In this document: one piece after another, positions 26,447 to 37,582 of the stretch
Position numbering within the stretch: the stretch's first letter is position 1
Layout: every line of letters starts with the position of its first letter
Origin: Thermoplasmata archaeon
GTDB taxonomy: Archaea; Thermoplasmatota; Thermoplasmata; Lutacidiplasmatales; UBA184
Assembly: GCA_030039715.1 (NCBI GenBank)
Contig: JASHVA010000048.1
Span: 1 to 37,761, forward strand
Length of the DNA stretch: 37,761 nucleotides
Direction: 5' to 3'
The notes under the pieces: model-generated
The model's database searches: none
Told to the model about the DNA's origin: nothing
What the model saw: the letters and a program-made list of their open reading frames with translations, nothing else
Translations under genes and position numbers: made by a program

Positions 26447-26875
26447 CTAGACCGCTTCCACCCGTTTGAGGGTTCGGCCGATGCGGCACTCCGCGGGCTC
26501 GGCCTCGACGCGCTCGATGCGGAAGCGCTGTTTCGCTGGCACGTTCGGGCTCGCGCAGACCCACCAGTTCGGGCAATCCAGACGGCGGCACGGGTACCGG
26601 GCGACCTCGACCGAGCTCCCGACGACCGCGCTCCGCGAGTCGACGACGAGCGCGCGCGCGACCGGCTTCACCTCCACGACGTGGGCCTCGGACTCCTGGA
26701 GGGCACACGGGTGCGTGATCGGCCGGACCTTGGTGACGGCGTAGTTCCGCCCGACGTCGAGCGTGAGGCAGGCGTGCCGGTACGGGCACGTGCGGCAGAC
26801 CGGCGCCCCGCCCTGGTAGATGAACTCGTACCCCTCGCGAGCCTCGGAACTCGCGATCAGCGTGATCTCGGGCAT
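26447..26875 (-). CDS. UPF0179 family Cys-rich archaeal protein
   Basis: CRTCPYRHACLTLDVGRNYAVTKVRPITHPCALQESEAHVVEV...CRRLDCPNWWVCASP matches the UPF0179 pattern. Confidence 0.85.
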   Translation of the reverse strand: MPEITLIASSEAREGYEFIYQGGAPVCRTCPYRHACLTLDVGRNYAVTKVRPITHPCALQESEAHVVEVKPVARALVVDSRSAVVGSSVEVARYPCRRLDCPNWWVCASPNVPAKQRFRIERVEAEPAECRIGRTLKRVEAV

Positions 26876-26876
26876 G

Positions 26877-27986
26877 CTAGCCGATCACTCCCGTGTGCTG
26901 GGCGAGCCGCTCCGCGGCCTCCCGCGTCAGTCCGTTGTCGCCGAGGATGGTGTACCGCTCGGGTCGCAATGTGTGAGCGAGCACGAGCGCGTTGACGACC
27001 TCCTCGGGCGTGACGCCGAGCTCCGCGGCGGTCGTGGGCGCGCCGATCGAACGGAGCGTCGCTTGGAGCCGTTGCCAGTCGCCCCCGTGCAAGTACATCA
27101 TCATCACGGCGCCGACCCCGCACTGTTCTCCGTGCAGGCTCGGGCGGGCGGCGACCCGGTCGAGGGCGTGACTGAACAGATGCTCGCTGCCCGAGCACGG
27201 ACGGGAGGAGCCGGCCACGCTCATCGCGATCCCGGCCACGATCATCGGACGGATCGCGATCCAGACCGACTCCTCGAGCCCGGGCTTGATCGAACCGGCG
27301 TGGTCGATGATCTCGCGCGCCGCGTACTCGCTCAGCGTCGCGGCCGTGCTCGAGAACTCCTCGTTCTTCAGCCGAACCGCGAGGTGCCAATCCAGCACGG
27401 CGGTCACGTTCGAGATGACGTCGGCGCAGCCCGAGGCCAGCAGGCGGAACGGCGCGCGCACGATGACCTCCGTGTCGGCGATGATGCCGATCGGCACCGC
27501 GGCCTCGATGCTGTTCGTCCGCTCGCTGCCGTGCAGCGAGGCGCGCGGGGAGGAGATCCCGTCATGGGCGGCGGAGGTCGGCAGGCTGACGAACGGGATG
27601 CGGAGACGATGGGCCACGACCTTCGTGATGTCGATCTTGCTCCCCCCGCCGGCGGCGACGAGGAAGCGGGCCCCCACGGCCCGGACGGCGGTCTCGACCC
27701 GCGCGACCTCGGCGTCGGTCGCCTCGTTCGCGATGATCACGGGGGCGGTGAACCCCTCCTTCGTCAGGAGGTCCGCGGCCCGGTTCCCCGCGAGCTCCGC
27801 CGTGCGCGGGCCGGTGATCACCGCCCCGGTGTCGAGGAAGTCGAACTGTCGACAGGCGGCCGCGAGCTCCTGGATGACCCCGTGGCCCGCGAGCACGACC
27901 CGGGGGAAGACCATCCCTCGGGCCTTTCCGAACGGCGAGTCGGCGGCGAGGATCGGACCGCGGGAGGTCGGGTCGTGGCTCGCCAT
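26877..27986 (-). CDS. egsA: sn-glycerol-1-phosphate dehydrogenase
   Basis: VAAGGGSKIDITKVVAHRLRIPFVSLPTSAAHDGISSPRASL; ASGCADVISNVTAVLDW; GSSRPCSGSEHLFSHALD. Confidence 0.95.
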   Translation of the reverse strand: MASHDPTSRGPILAADSPFGKARGMVFPRVVLAGHGVIQELAAACRQFDFLDTGAVITGPRTAELAGNRAADLLTKEGFTAPVIIANEATDAEVARVETAVRAVGARFLVAAGGGSKIDITKVVAHRLRIPFVSLPTSAAHDGISSPRASLHGSERTNSIEAAVPIGIIADTEVIVRAPFRLLASGCADVISNVTAVLDWHLAVRLKNEEFSSTAATLSEYAAREIIDHAGSIKPGLEESVWIAIRPMIVAGIAMSVAGSSRPCSGSEHLFSHALDRVAARPSLHGEQCGVGAVMMMYLHGGDWQRLQATLRSIGAPTTAAELGVTPEEVVNALVLAHTLRPERYTILGDNGLTREAAERLAQHTGVIG

Positions 27987-28060
27987 CGCTCGGAAGGCCG
28001 AACGAGGGAGCGACCCTCTTTAGGGTATCGCGGAGCGGCGCCCGCCGGACCGGGCCCGAG

Positions 28061-28702
28061 CTACCGTCCGGGGACGTCGCCCCAGAGCACCTTGTGCTCT
28101 TGGAGCATCAGCCGGACGTCGAGCCGGTCCTTCAGGACCCAGTCGGCGAGTCGCCCCGCGTCCGTCCCCCAGACCGGCTGGAACAGGAGCGTCGCGGGGC
28201 CCCGGTACCTTCGGACGACGCGCCGCGCGTAGAGGTAATCCTTCCGGTCCCCGATGACGAACTTCACGACATCCCGCTCGCGGAGCTTGGGGAGGTTCGA
28301 CCACCGGTTCTTCGCTTCCATCCTCGAGGACGGACACTTCACGTCCACGCTGAGCACGACCCGGGGCACCGCCAGGTACGGAGTCACGTCGAGCGACCCA
28401 CCCGTCTCGATCACGGTCGTGACGCCGCGCTCGGCGAGACGCTCGACGAGCGCCACCGACTCGCGCTGGAGGAGCGGCTCCCCGCCGGTCAGACACACGT
28501 TCCGAGTCCCGTTCCGTGCCACCTCCCGGAGCAAGGAGTCGATCGACCGCTCCTTGCCCGGACCGAACGAATACGTCGTGTCGCACCAGCTGCATCGCAG
28601 GTTGCAGCGGGCCGCGCGGATGAACGTCGTTCGGACCCCTGTGAGCGGCCCTTCACCCTGGATCGAATGGAACACCTCGATGATCCGCATCCGGGGAGCC
28701 AT
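28061..28702 (-). CDS. queE: 7-carboxy-7-deazaguanine synthase (radical SAM); start taken at MAPRMRIIEV
   Basis: IIEVFHSIQGEGPLTGVRTTFIRAARCNLRCSWCDTTYSF (CxxxxCxxC-type radical SAM site); CLTGGEPLLQ; VDVKCPSS. Confidence 0.93.
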   Translation of the reverse strand: MAPRMRIIEVFHSIQGEGPLTGVRTTFIRAARCNLRCSWCDTTYSFGPGKERSIDSLLREVARNGTRNVCLTGGEPLLQRESVALVERLAERGVTTVIETGGSLDVTPYLAVPRVVLSVDVKCPSSRMEAKNRWSNLPKLRERDVVKFVIGDRKDYLYARRVVRRYRGPATLLFQPVWGTDAGRLADWVLKDRLDVRLMLQEHKVLWGDVPGR

Positions 28703-33154: not shown

Positions 33155-33577
33155 TCACCGGGCGGAGAGCTCCGCGACGACGTTCCCCGCCTCGTCGTCG
33201 CCGAGCCGCTTGCGGCCGGTCGAGCGGAACGGGTTCGACTCCCCGTACCGGGGGATGAGGTGGAAGTGGAGGTGGAAGACGATCTGCCCGGCGGTCGCGC
33301 CCGCGTTGAGACCCACGTTGTAGTCGGGCGCGAGCCGCTCGGCGCGGCGGCACATCGTCTCGAGCGTGCGGAGGACGGCGGCGAGCTCCTCGGGAGCGTA
33401 ATCCGTGAGCCGCGCCCCGTGCCGCTTGGGGATGACGAGGGTGTGCCCGCGCGTGAGCGGGAAAAGGTCGAGAAACGCGACGGTCTGCTCGTCCTCGTAG
33501 ACCTTGTAGGCCGGCGCCCGACCGGCCACGATGTCGCAGAAGATGCACTTCTCGGCGGGGGCGGGGCCCGGGGTCAT
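33155..33577 (-). CDS. HIT family nucleotide-binding hydrolase; start taken at MTPGPAPAEKCIFC
   Basis: CIFCDIVAGRAPAYKVYEDEQTVAFLDLFPLTRGHTLVIPKRH...GQIVFHLHFHLIPRYG (HxHxH). Confidence 0.95.
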   Translation of the reverse strand: MTPGPAPAEKCIFCDIVAGRAPAYKVYEDEQTVAFLDLFPLTRGHTLVIPKRHGARLTDYAPEELAAVLRTLETMCRRAERLAPDYNVGLNAGATAGQIVFHLHFHLIPRYGESNPFRSTGRKRLGDDEAGNVVAELSAR

Positions 33578-33668
33578 TTTTTCCCCGACCGCCCCACCGA
33601 ATAAAGGGGTGCGGTAGTGGCGCAGGGGTGAGTCGCCCTCATTAGGAGTGCGTGGTCTTCCCGGGGTA

Positions 33669-35987
33669 ATGCGCTCCACTGTCGCGGCGCTCGCGATGGT
33701 GGCCGCGGCGCTCGTCGTAGGGTCTTCCCTCGTTGCGGGCGGGGCCGCGGCCGCCCCCGCGGCCCGGGGACTGCCCCCGGTCGGGCTGGTGACCGACGCG
33801 GTACCGCTCCCGGTCGGTGCGGTCGCGGATCCGGTCCCTTCGGCGACCGAGCTCGAGATCTCGCTCACGCTCGCGTATCCCGACCCCGGCGGGCTGGAGT
33901 GGTACCTTTCCCAGGTCGAGAACCCGTCCTCGGTCCTCTATCGCGCGTACCTCACCCATTCCGAGTTCGAATCGACGTTCGCCCCGTCCTCCGACGCCGT
34001 GGGCACGGTCGTGCGGACCCTCGAAGGCGCGGGCGCGAGCGGAGTCACGGTCGCGCCGGACCGGCTCTCGGTCGTCGCGCGCCTATCCGCCGCGGGGGTC
34101 GATTCCCTCTTCGGGGTCCGCCTCGTCTACTACGCCACCGAGGACGGCGCCCGTCTGTACACGGCGCTCGGTCGGGTGACGATCCCGTCGCCGCTCGACG
34201 GGCTCGTCGCCGGGGTCTCGGGGCTCTCGAATTCCGCGGACCTGCGGCTCTCCCTCGACCTCGACGTCGGGGCCCTCACGAAGGTCGTGCCGCGTTCCGC
34301 GGGCGACGAGTTCTCCTACAACAATTCGACGGCGACCCAGTGGTTCGTCGGCTCGGACTTCACGCAGGCATTCCACGCGGACCAGCTGTTCCCCGGTAAC
34401 GGCAGCATGATCAATCCGATCAACGCGACGTACCCCACCGACGTCGCGATCGCCACGCTGCTCGCGAGCGGCTACAACCAGACCACGGGCAACAACACCC
34501 CGCCCTGGGACCCGGTCGTCGTGCGGACGTACCTCAACGACACGCTGCTCAACTCGAGTTCGCTCGACCGCTGGCCGATCTCGAACCTCACGGGCGTCCC
34601 GGTGAACATCTCGGGGGTGACGCCCCCGCTGCCGGGCTCCTTCGGCGACGTGAACGATAGCTCGCTCGACGAGTTCGAGAACTCGCTCGACCTCGAAATG
34701 GCCGGGAGCCTTGCCCCCGGGGCGCCGCTCTACAACTTCTACTTCGCCGGCAGTCTCCTCACGAGCGCCGTCAGCGACGCGGACGTCGCGTCGTTCTTCG
34801 ACCAGGACCTCGCGGCGGCGCTCTCCTACAACTACTCGCCCGCGCACCTCGGGGTCGTCTCGGCCTCCTTCGGGATCACCGACCTCAACGACTCGACGTG
34901 GAACGAGGAGCTCGAGGAGGCCGCCGTCACCGGCGTCACGGTCGTCGCGGCGAGCGGAGATCAGGGGAACGCCCCGAACAGTCTCACGGGCCGCGACAAC
35001 GGCCAGTGGCTCGTCTGGCCGGCGTCGGTCGCGTTCAACACCTCCGGCGTGCTGTCGGTCGGCGGCACCTCCTTCGAACTGTCCGGCACGCCGGTCGGCT
35101 GGGTGAACGCGACCTCGGTCTCCGTCGGCTACGACCCTTCGATCGGCAACCTCACGGACGTGAGCGCCTGGTGGAACACGCTCGGTGGGAAGGGCGATTA
35201 CACGGGGACCGAGGGAGGGGTGAGCGTCGTCTATCCCGAACCGAGCTGGCAGTTCGGCTCCGCCGCCCAGCCGAACATCGTCAACGCCACGATCAAGCAA
35301 GGAGCCGGAGCGCTCGGGCGCGCCGGGCCGGACGTCGCCTTCCCCGGCAACTCCACGATCGCCTTCGTGGAGGCGGACCAGTTCGGGAACATCTACGCGA
35401 GCCTCCTCCAGGGGACGAGCATCGCCTCCCCCGCGTTCGCCGGCCTCCTCGCGGACGTGATCGCCGCGGCGAACCATCGGTTCGGCTTCGTAGCCCCCGA
35501 GCTCTACCGCATCGCGAGCTACTTCGCGGCCCACCCGGGCGGGACGAACCCGTTCTACGACGTGACGAACGGCTCGAACTACGTCTTCTCGGCCGTCCCG
35601 GGCTGGGACGCCACCACCGGTTGGGGGATGCCGATCGGGCCGCTCCTCTACGCGGCGGACGCGACGCCGGCGATCCGCAACTACGTCTACACCGGTCCCA
35701 CACCGGGCCTCCCGACGAGCGCCCCGCCGCCCGCGGTGCCCTGGACCGAGATCTACATCATCTTCGGAGTGGGCGCGGTTGTGGCGATCGCGCTCGTCGT
35801 GATCATGGCCCGTCCCCAGCGCGGCGGAGGGCCGCCCCCTCCGCCGCCCCCGTACGCGGCCATGCCGCCTCCGCCGCCGGGCGCCTTCCCGACCGCGACG
35901 TACAACGGCCCGACGTTCCTCTGTCCGTACTGCGGGGCGATCCGACCGGCCGAGCCGGTGCGCTGTCCGCGCTGCGGCGCGCTCTGA
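33669..35987 (+). CDS. Secreted/membrane-anchored S53 (sedolisin/kumamolisin-like) peptidase with C-terminal TM, Pro-rich linker and zinc ribbon
   Basis: Signal peptide MRSTVAALAMVAAALVVGSSLVAGGAAAAPAA; pro-domain; DEFENSLDLEMAGSLAPGA (Glu/Asp); VVAASGDQGNA; QGTSIASPAFAGLLADV (Ser); C-terminal IYIIFGVGAVVAIALVVIMARPQRGG then FLCPYCGAIRPAEPVRCPRCGAL. Confidence 0.9.
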   Translation: MRSTVAALAMVAAALVVGSSLVAGGAAAAPAARGLPPVGLVTDAVPLPVGAVADPVPSATELEISLTLAYPDPGGLEWYLSQVENPSSVLYRAYLTHSEFESTFAPSSDAVGTVVRTLEGAGASGVTVAPDRLSVVARLSAAGVDSLFGVRLVYYATEDGARLYTALGRVTIPSPLDGLVAGVSGLSNSADLRLSLDLDVGALTKVVPRSAGDEFSYNNSTATQWFVGSDFTQAFHADQLFPGNGSMINPINATYPTDVAIATLLASGYNQTTGNNTPPWDPVVVRTYLNDTLLNSSSLDRWPISNLTGVPVNISGVTPPLPGSFGDVNDSSLDEFENSLDLEMAGSLAPGAPLYNFYFAGSLLTSAVSDADVASFFDQDLAAALSYNYSPAHLGVVSASFGITDLNDSTWNEELEEAAVTGVTVVAASGDQGNAPNSLTGRDNGQWLVWPASVAFNTSGVLSVGGTSFELSGTPVGWVNATSVSVGYDPSIGNLTDVSAWWNTLGGKGDYTGTEGGVSVVYPEPSWQFGSAAQPNIVNATIKQGAGALGRAGPDVAFPGNSTIAFVEADQFGNIYASLLQGTSIASPAFAGLLADVIAAANHRFGFVAPELYRIASYFAAHPGGTNPFYDVTNGSNYVFSAVPGWDATTGWGMPIGPLLYAADATPAIRNYVYTGPTPGLPTSAPPPAVPWTEIYIIFGVGAVVAIALVVIMARPQRGGGPPPPPPPYAAMPPPPPGAFPTATYNGPTFLCPYCGAIRPAEPVRCPRCGAL

Positions 35988-35990
35988 CGC

Positions 35991-36620
35991 TCAGCCGGCC
36001 GCGGGCGGCTCGACCGCGGGGGTCGGGGCGGCTTCGGCCGGCGCCGGCCCGGGAGGCTCGGGCGCGTCGACCGCGGCGGCGGCGGGCGTGGCTCCCGAGG
36101 GGGGCGGGACGCCGAGCTTCTGCTCGAGGTACCGTCGGATCTCCTCGGGCTTCGTCGACCCGATGCCGAAGTACTCCGCGAACCGCCGGGTCGTCGTGAG
36201 CTCGAGCGTGGCCCCCTTCGGCTCGGTGCGGACGAGCCCGACCGTGCGCAGGTGCTGGACCTCCTCGTAGGCGACGTCGCCGATCATGCGGACGAGATGG
36301 CTTTGGAGGAGCGGCTGATGGTACGCGACGAGCGTGAGCGCTTTCACCGTGCGCGGGGCGAGCTCCACCGGCGTCACCGAGTGGACCGTCGGCACGTAGC
36401 GCTCTTCGAGCTGGAGCGCGTACCGGTCGCCGACCCGTCGGACCTCGAGCGCCGATTGGCGGTTGCCGTACGTCTTCTCGAGCGTGCGCACCGCGCTCTG
36501 GACCGGCCGGTAGTCGGTCTGGCCGAGCGCGTCGGAGATCTCCTTCACGCTGAGCGGCTTACCGGCGGCGAACAGGACGGCCTCGACCTGGAAGACCAGG
36601 TCATCGAGTTTCGACGGCAT
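35991..36620 (-). CDS. scpB: Segregation and condensation protein ScpB with a Pro/Ala-rich C-terminal tail; start at MPSKLDDLV
   Basis: FQVEAVLFAAGKPLSVKEISDALGQTDYRPVQSAVRTLEKTY...RTVKALTLVAYHQPLLQSHLVRMIGDVAYEEVQHLRTVGLV. Confidence 0.9.
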   Translation of the reverse strand: MPSKLDDLVFQVEAVLFAAGKPLSVKEISDALGQTDYRPVQSAVRTLEKTYGNRQSALEVRRVGDRYALQLEERYVPTVHSVTPVELAPRTVKALTLVAYHQPLLQSHLVRMIGDVAYEEVQHLRTVGLVRTEPKGATLELTTTRRFAEYFGIGSTKPEEIRRYLEQKLGVPPPSGATPAAAAVDAPEPPGPAPAEAAPTPAVEPPAAG

Positions 36621-36622
36621 GC

Positions 36623-37582
36623 TTACGGTTCCTCCGCGACGACCTGCCGCTCGTCCGCGAGCCGGACGATCAGGACCGGGCTCGTCCCGAGCGACTCCTG
36701 ACGGAGGTCGATCGAGCGCTCGCGGGCGAGGAACAGGGCGGCGAGGAAGAGGGCGACCAACCGGTCGCGGCCGCTGAGCGGGTTCCAGAGGTCGAGGAGG
36801 GGGAACGGCTCGCCGATCGCGTGGCGGCGGGCCGCCTGCCACGTGTCCGCGAGGTCGTGCTCGGGAAGGTCTCCGTGGACGAGGACCTCGGGCGGAGCCC
36901 GCTGCTCCTCGCGCAGGCGTTCGCGCAGCTCCTGGATCCGGACGGCGCGGCGGGCGTCCGCCTCCGCCTCCCCGAACGCCTTGACGAGCTCGAGGAGCGA
37001 GACCGGCCGCGTCTCGGGGTGCCGGACCATCTCGAGGAGCGGGGGCCCTTCGACCGAGTCGAGCACGGCGGAGGTGACGTCGACCGCTTCGGGCGTTTCC
37101 AGGAGCGGAAGGTAGCCGTCGTCGAGCGGCGGGGCCTCGAGTTCGCCTCCCGCCGGCGCGGCCGCCGCCGGTTCCTGCCGGGCCTTGAGGAGCTCCTCGG
37201 ACTGGAGGTAGAGGATGCTCCAGGCCATGTAGACGAGCCGGCCGGCGATCGCGAAGTTGACGGCGCCGTCCGACTGGACCCGTTCGAGGTACGACTGCGT
37301 GAACTTGACGAGGTCGATCTCCCACGGGTCGAACTCCTCCTCCATCACGAGCTCGAAGAGGAGCGCCATCGCCTTCTGGAACGGGTCGGGGATGACGAGG
37401 TGGACCCCTTCCTTGAGCTCCTCCACGAGGGTGAGGTACCGCTCGAGCAGGGCCGAGGTGTCCTCCGTCTCCCCGAGCAGCGAGCGATGGAAGACGAGAT
37501 ACTGGAGCACCTTCTCGGCCGCTTCACGCGGCACCGCGTTCGCGGCGGAGATCGCGACGACCTCGCTCTCGGGCGTCGTCAT
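36623..37582 (-). CDS. scpA: Segregation and condensation protein ScpA (kleisin)
   Basis: EEEFDPWEIDLVKFTQSYLERVQSDGAVNFAIAGRLVYMAWSILYLQSEELL; C-terminal LVALFLAALFLARERSIDLRQES. Confidence 0.92.
   Translation of the reverse strand: MTTPESEVVAISAANAVPREAAEKVLQYLVFHRSLLGETEDTSALLERYLTLVEELKEGVHLVIPDPFQKAMALLFELVMEEEFDPWEIDLVKFTQSYLERVQSDGAVNFAIAGRLVYMAWSILYLQSEELLKARQEPAAAAPAGGELEAPPLDDGYLPLLETPEAVDVTSAVLDSVEGPPLLEMVRHPETRPVSLLELVKAFGEAEADARRAVRIQELRERLREEQRAPPEVLVHGDLPEHDLADTWQAARRHAIGEPFPLLDLWNPLSGRDRLVALFLAALFLARERSIDLRQESLGTSPVLIVRLADERQVVAEEP

Follow-up and report, generated by a model that had tools for sequence, protein, structure and literature searches.

A membrane-anchored S53 peptidase of Thermoplasmata with a strongly constrained, predicted cytoplasmic zinc ribbon

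In a protease of the secreted type, the active-site domain is expected to be the best conserved part of the protein. The window analyzed here (a stretch of 37,761 nucleotides) encodes a peptidase of the sedolisin family (S53) in which the last 24 residues, predicted to lie inside the cell, are kept better than the active-site domain. The window comes from a metagenome-assembled genome of 1.55 Mb (G000; 71% complete, 214 contigs). The named relatives are Thermoplasmata archaea, including Candidatus Lutacidiplasma silvani, UBA184 and UBA61, and the host itself is probably a Lutacidiplasmatales-type member of the Thermoplasmata, that is, one of the acid-soil archaea. The order Lutacidiplasmatales was named from genomes assembled from acidic soils, and S53, thermopsin and A4 are given in the main text of the respective paper as the most prevalent extracellular peptidases of the order, active at low pH (Sheridan et al. 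2022, PMC9287336).

The open reading frame, on the plus strand, extends from a GTG at 33648 to the stop codon at 35987 (779 aa); translation from the ATG at 33669 yields 772 aa, and this ATG is the likelier start because the close orthologs have a methionine there too. Residues are numbered throughout from the GTG at 33648. The features of the gene and its immediate neighbors are as follows.

33155..33580, minus strand: HIT-family protein, divergent fixed neighbor (PF01230, synteny)
33669..35987, plus strand: S53 (sedolisin/kumamolisin-type) peptidase gene with a TM helix and a predicted C-terminal zinc ribbon
33669..33755, plus strand: predicted signal peptide, N-terminal hydrophobic segment, residues 8-36 (hydropathy; model helix 7-30)
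33828..34232, plus strand: pro-kumamolisin activation domain, residues 61-195 (PF09286, Pro-kuma_activ, E 1.1e-19)
34338..35678, plus strand: S53 catalytic domain, residues about 231-677 (PDB profile match, fold match)
34677-34679, 34689-34691, 34959-34961 and 35418-35420, plus strand: codons of the presumed tetrad residues E344, D348, D438 and S591, respectively
35679..35717, plus strand: region of the conserved juxtamembrane motif YVYTGPTPGLPTS, residues 678-690 (conservation, codon ratio)
35742..35807, plus strand: single C-terminal TM helix, residues 699-720 (hydropathy 702-720; AlphaFold helix 699-720)
35811..35912, plus strand: proline-rich linker, predicted cytoplasmic, residues 722-755, sequence unconserved
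35913..35984, plus strand: predicted C-terminal zinc ribbon TFLCPYCGAIRPAEPVRCPRCGAL, residues 756-779 (Cys pattern, predicted hairpin)
35991..36695, minus strand: ScpB, convergent fixed neighbor (PF04079, synteny)
36623..37582, minus strand: ScpA, fixed neighbor (PF02616, synteny)

The first search, over 61 genomes, yielded 24 matches counted as orthologs, most of them near whole-length and 45-75% identical to the window protein; the set employed below consists of 55 orthologs, namely, 54 near-full-length relatives from named contigs and the window protein. A profile built from 23 orthologs matched tripeptidyl-peptidase 1 (TPP1; 2e-34), kumamolisin and sedolisin in the PDB, and a subtilase-clan Pfam match spans residues 385-610; separately, two of the 23 orthologs yielded a mycosin match that was only weak (best 2e-5). 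The predicted structure (m0c7ae68b757b; mean pLDDT 69.5, with the pro-domain and a large part of the catalytic core modeled well and the linker at low confidence) aligns with pro-kumamolisin 1t1e with an E value of 1.8e-26 and a TM-score of 0.72 (target length), at about 21% identity over the fold match. Residues E344, D348, D438 and S591, which, from knowledge of S53, we take to be the Glu/Asp/Asp/Ser tetrad, are invariant in all 55 orthologs; among the possible C-terminal calcium-site residues, with the ligands assigned by motif rather than from structure, D654 is conserved in 50 of the 55 (N in 5) and D638 in 42. The pro-domain, the tetrad and the predicted fold jointly assign the protein to MEROPS family S53. 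An acid-type protease fits both this family and the habitat, both of which suggest, as a prediction, activity at acid pH. The architecture proposed in the first-pass annotation (signal peptide, S53 pro-domain, catalytic motifs, TM, Pro-rich linker, ribbon) holds up, with Pfam, the PDB profile, the fold and the orthologs in agreement. Two S53 orthologs (L031 and L093) have the reading frame broken in the catalytic region, by a frameshift or an assembly error.

The topology was assessed by hydropathy and charge. The N-terminal hydrophobic segment is present in 54 of the 55 orthologs and the TM helix in all of them; helix 699-720 is the second TM helix that the first-pass annotation presupposed, and apart from the cleavable signal it is the only one. 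Lys and Arg number, on average, 3.2 in the 15 residues after the helix and 0.16 in the 15 before it, and the count after the helix exceeds the count before it in 55 of 55 orthologs. The region N-terminal of the ribbon contains a median of zero cysteines across the set; in the window protein, the ribbon residues C759, C762, C773 and C776 are the only cysteines. Because basic residues follow the TM helix and a signal peptide is present, the catalytic domain is predicted to lie outside and the ribbon inside the cell, a well-supported topology that was already proposed in the initial reading and that would make the peptidase a type I membrane protein with a cytoplasmic tail. The charge pattern, together with the cysteine distribution, led us to reject a ribbon on the outside. 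In a strongly acid medium, moreover, a Cys4 zinc site is unlikely to keep its metal.

The ribbon itself is predicted to be of the Cys4 zinc-binding type from its cysteine pattern and the predicted hairpin (strands 756-758 and 765-767). Pfam ribbon models, which at 20-30 residues readily miss divergent ribbons, match it below their cut-offs only (for PF13240, 12.9 bits vs a cut-off of 25), and a PDB search with the ribbon sequence alone returned nothing beyond generic zinc proteins. The four cysteines are found in 54 of the 55 orthologs, always in the spacing CX2CX10CX2C and, with a single exception among these 54, at most 7 residues from the C-terminus. Several other ribbon residues are conserved as well (R766 in 52, P767 in 50 and E769 in 45 of the 55 orthologs), as expected of a binding surface, and form the consensus face CPYCG..RPAEPVRCP.CG, within which RPAEPVR is kept across the core clade. 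Distant orthologs possess diverged ribbons, such as CSYCHRQ... and CRYCRNPRP..., so that a docking face, if this is what the motif represents, would not be universal.

Codon comparison of six close orthologs gives ratios of nonsynonymous to synonymous differences of 0.16 for the ribbon, 0.83 for the catalytic domain, 1.28 for the pro-domain and 1.22 for the linker; these are raw counts rather than estimates under a dN/dS model, and the ribbon comprises just 24 codons; the contrast is nevertheless large. The nonsynonymous share of codon pairs is 0.06, 0.23, 0.37 and 0.38, respectively, with synonymous differences alike in all regions (0.24-0.40). Of all regions of the S53 protein, the ribbon is under the tightest constraint and evolves under strong purifying selection, and a chance occurrence of CxxC pairs is ruled out by this codon ratio along with the conservation in 54 of 55 orthologs. 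The linker shows a mean identity of 0.25 among the orthologs, with a distance from the TM helix to the ribbon of 32-102 aa and a mean proline content of 26% (vs 7% in the window protein's catalytic domain).

A free linker, a constrained ribbon and a position on the cytoplasmic side are the features that a tethered docking tag would be expected to show. The explanation that we favor, with confidence evenly balanced between acceptance and doubt, is that of an acid endopeptidase anchored in the membrane with type I topology, the ribbon of which docks to a putative cytosolic partner. Under this scenario, the signal peptide would direct export; the pro-domain would fold the catalytic domain and then be removed at the low external pH, zymogen activation being surmised from the family; the C-terminal helix would retain the active enzyme at the surface of the cell; the flexible Pro-rich linker would carry the zinc ribbon into the cytoplasm; and the ribbon face CPYCG..RPAEPVRCP.CG would dock to a partner in the cytosol, by which the surface protease would be positioned, clustered or regulated. 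The scenario starts from computed features: the family and fold, the residues of the active site, the signals of topology and the purifying selection that acts on the ribbon. Docking and the putative partner we infer from the constraint on the ribbon, the strict conservation of which suggests that it grips some component of the cell. In these archaea, which are widespread in acid soils, the constraint would thus point to a surface protease that has a partner in the cytosol.

Other membrane proteins have tails of this kind as well. In the window genome, a thermopsin (A5 acid protease, PF05317; L046:1473-3020, minus strand, contig C157) combines a TM helix with a long Pro/Ala-rich linker and two ribbons, and four additional membrane proteins (L038, L040, L043 and L047) contain TM segments followed by at least one C-terminal ribbon. 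In the near-complete relative G017, such an arrangement is detected in 16 of the 1332 predicted genes, a count obtained with a simple gene caller of our own and a hydropathy threshold and covering a mixed set, many members of which have more than one TM, with only 3 passing a strict type I filter; the C-terminal ribbons of this genome are enriched on TM proteins (16/23 vs 405/1332; Fisher p 1e-4). In the examined half (0.8 Mb) of the more distant control genome G051, 4 of 802 genes encode a TM followed by a C-terminal ribbon, and the sole S53 protein is ribbonless. A tail unique to the S53 protease is ruled out by the thermopsin and the other membrane proteins of the window genome and by G017, so that the first-pass annotation, which took the tail to be specific to this protein, was too narrow; a tail peculiar to the lineage is unsupported given the counts for G051. 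One of these proteins belongs to an uncharacterized multi-TM family with the conserved C-terminal ribbon CP.CGAVVY....TCWKCG, represented in two genomes (L038:1440-2507 and L174:960-2006, both on the minus strand).

The main rival to docking builds on this distribution: the ribbon could be a generic anchor or cap, a small folded knob that terminates the tail on the cytoplasmic side and protects it in many membrane proteins of the lineage, serving as a stop-transfer lock, as protection from proteolysis or in self-association, with no specific partner. This tentative alternative draws support from all the unrelated ribbon-tailed proteins listed above, those of G051 included. However, a cap should tolerate changes between the cysteines, yet RPAEPVR is kept in the core clade, and the ribbon sequences differ among the protein families of one genome. 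Furthermore, the syntenic ortholog L096:1823-4075 (plus strand), with the tetrad and the TM helix intact, is a natural ribbon deletion (a frameshift was rejected as the cause because no ribbon is found in any frame), and a paralog in the window genome (L002) has the TM helix and a Pro-rich tail without a ribbon; since both retain the TM helix and an unadorned Pro-rich tail, a cap appears unneeded for anchoring. In the S53 protein tree, the alignment of which took in, for some rows, the columns of the ribbon (a small part of 762 in total), the ribbon label changes at least three times and ribbons fall into two well-separated clades.

Coupling of the protease to an intracellular partner, as originally proposed for this locus, fits the ribbon constraint and stays plausible; it is the dedicated link that is made doubtful by similar tails on unrelated membrane proteins, which could represent a general docking or anchoring tail. 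If docking is general, it would explain the zinc-ribbon ends on several surface proteins of these archaea. A broader proposal, in which cytoplasmic C-terminal ribbons in Thermoplasmata are address tags on surface enzymes (S53, thermopsin) and other proteins with ectodomains, appears rather doubtful at present; should it be true, conserved ribbons read by partners that are cytosolic or associated with the membrane would allow these archaea to organize outside proteolysis from inside.

Oxidation or acid can cause Cys4 ribbons to lose their zinc, a property that counts in favor of a sensor inside the cell, whereby the ribbon would read zinc, redox state or acidification in the cytosol and control the protease from within. 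The surroundings of the organism are acid according to the main text of PMC9287336, but the signal would have to pass along a single helix and then a flexible linker 32-102 residues long, and we consider this explanation unlikely. Similarly improbable is a shed enzyme, in which the juxtamembrane motif YVYTGPTPGLPTS (YxYTGPTPGLP) would be a self-cleavage or processing site, with the catalytic domain released and the TM-ribbon stub left as a remnant or a signal. The stretch in question, residues 678-699, is the second most constrained after the ribbon in the six close orthologs (nonsynonymous to synonymous ratio of 0.54), and the motif has a major-residue frequency of 0.71, with a Y.Y...PG form in distant orthologs; however, it might be no more than the final strand of the catalytic domain, and the model, with a pLDDT of about 50 there, favors neither view. 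An archaeosortase-type C-terminal sorting signal, which the conserved motif ahead of the TM helix brings to mind, is not favored, given that the helix is followed by a long tail whose end is conserved.

The gene order LeuRS(+), dCTP deaminase(-), Memo(-), HIT(-), S53(+), ScpB(-), ScpA(-) is shared by nearly all relatives with enough flanking sequence. The Memo-HIT side is kept even in the distant relatives (L095, L099-L103, L105 and L109), down to about 34-40% identity, with ScpAB sometimes farther away or outside the available stretch. In one subclade (G001, G002, G012 and G018; L241-L244), the S53 gene is absent and HIT directly adjoins ScpB. Given the conserved order and this clean absence, the S53 gene appears to be old and mostly vertically kept, with at least one clean loss; because the ribbon is lost in L096 and the gene in one subclade, neither seems essential everywhere. 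Such a fixed position in the chromosome speaks for a house-keeping function of the protease at the envelope, as opposed to an interchangeable nutrition enzyme. That the protein is simply a secreted protease for nutrition whose tail is neutral is hardly credible, even though S53 peptidases belong to the most common extracellular ones in the order (main text of PMC9287336); this reading is disfavored by the codon analysis, with the ribbon as the most constrained region, and by the fixed position. The neighboring HIT, Memo, dCTP deaminase and ScpAB genes, all on the strand opposite to S53, suggest no functional lead or partner; in particular, a link with ScpAB is not favored, given that S53 and scpB are convergently transcribed and that Memo, HIT and dCTP deaminase likewise belong to the fixed order. 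Near LeuRS, the window contains a 470-aa ORF (26820-28232, plus strand) with no Pfam match and with a homologous stretch at the corresponding position of L241, L242 and L244.

With regard to known systems, several are close to the window protein. The published extracellular S53 peptidases of Lutacidiplasmatales share with it the family, the signal peptide and, by inference, the order; zinc is unmentioned in the main text of that paper (PMC9287336), and the present analysis adds the TM helix, the ribbon, the fixed locus and the constraint. The literature searched contained no co-mention of sedolisin or thermopsin with a zinc ribbon. Membrane proteins assigned to Pfam Zn_Ribbon_1, DZR, DUF7577 and DUF7575, seen in the same genomes, likewise have a short terminal Cys4 ribbon, whereas the window ribbon scores below all Pfam cut-offs, has its own RPAEPVR core and sits on a protease. 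Kumamolisin, sedolisin and tripeptidyl-peptidase 1 have the pro-domain, catalytic domain, tetrad and fold (1t1e, 3edy) in common with the window protein, to which, compared with the solved S53 chains of pro-domain and catalytic domain, a TM helix, a linker and a predicted zinc ribbon are added. Type I membrane subtilases of the Furin/Kex2 type and the mycosin MycP belong to family S8, as opposed to S53, and lack a zinc ribbon, but they too consist of a pro-protease on the outside, one C-terminal TM helix and a short cytoplasmic tail capable of addressing the enzyme; by analogy, the window protease would work like these enzymes.
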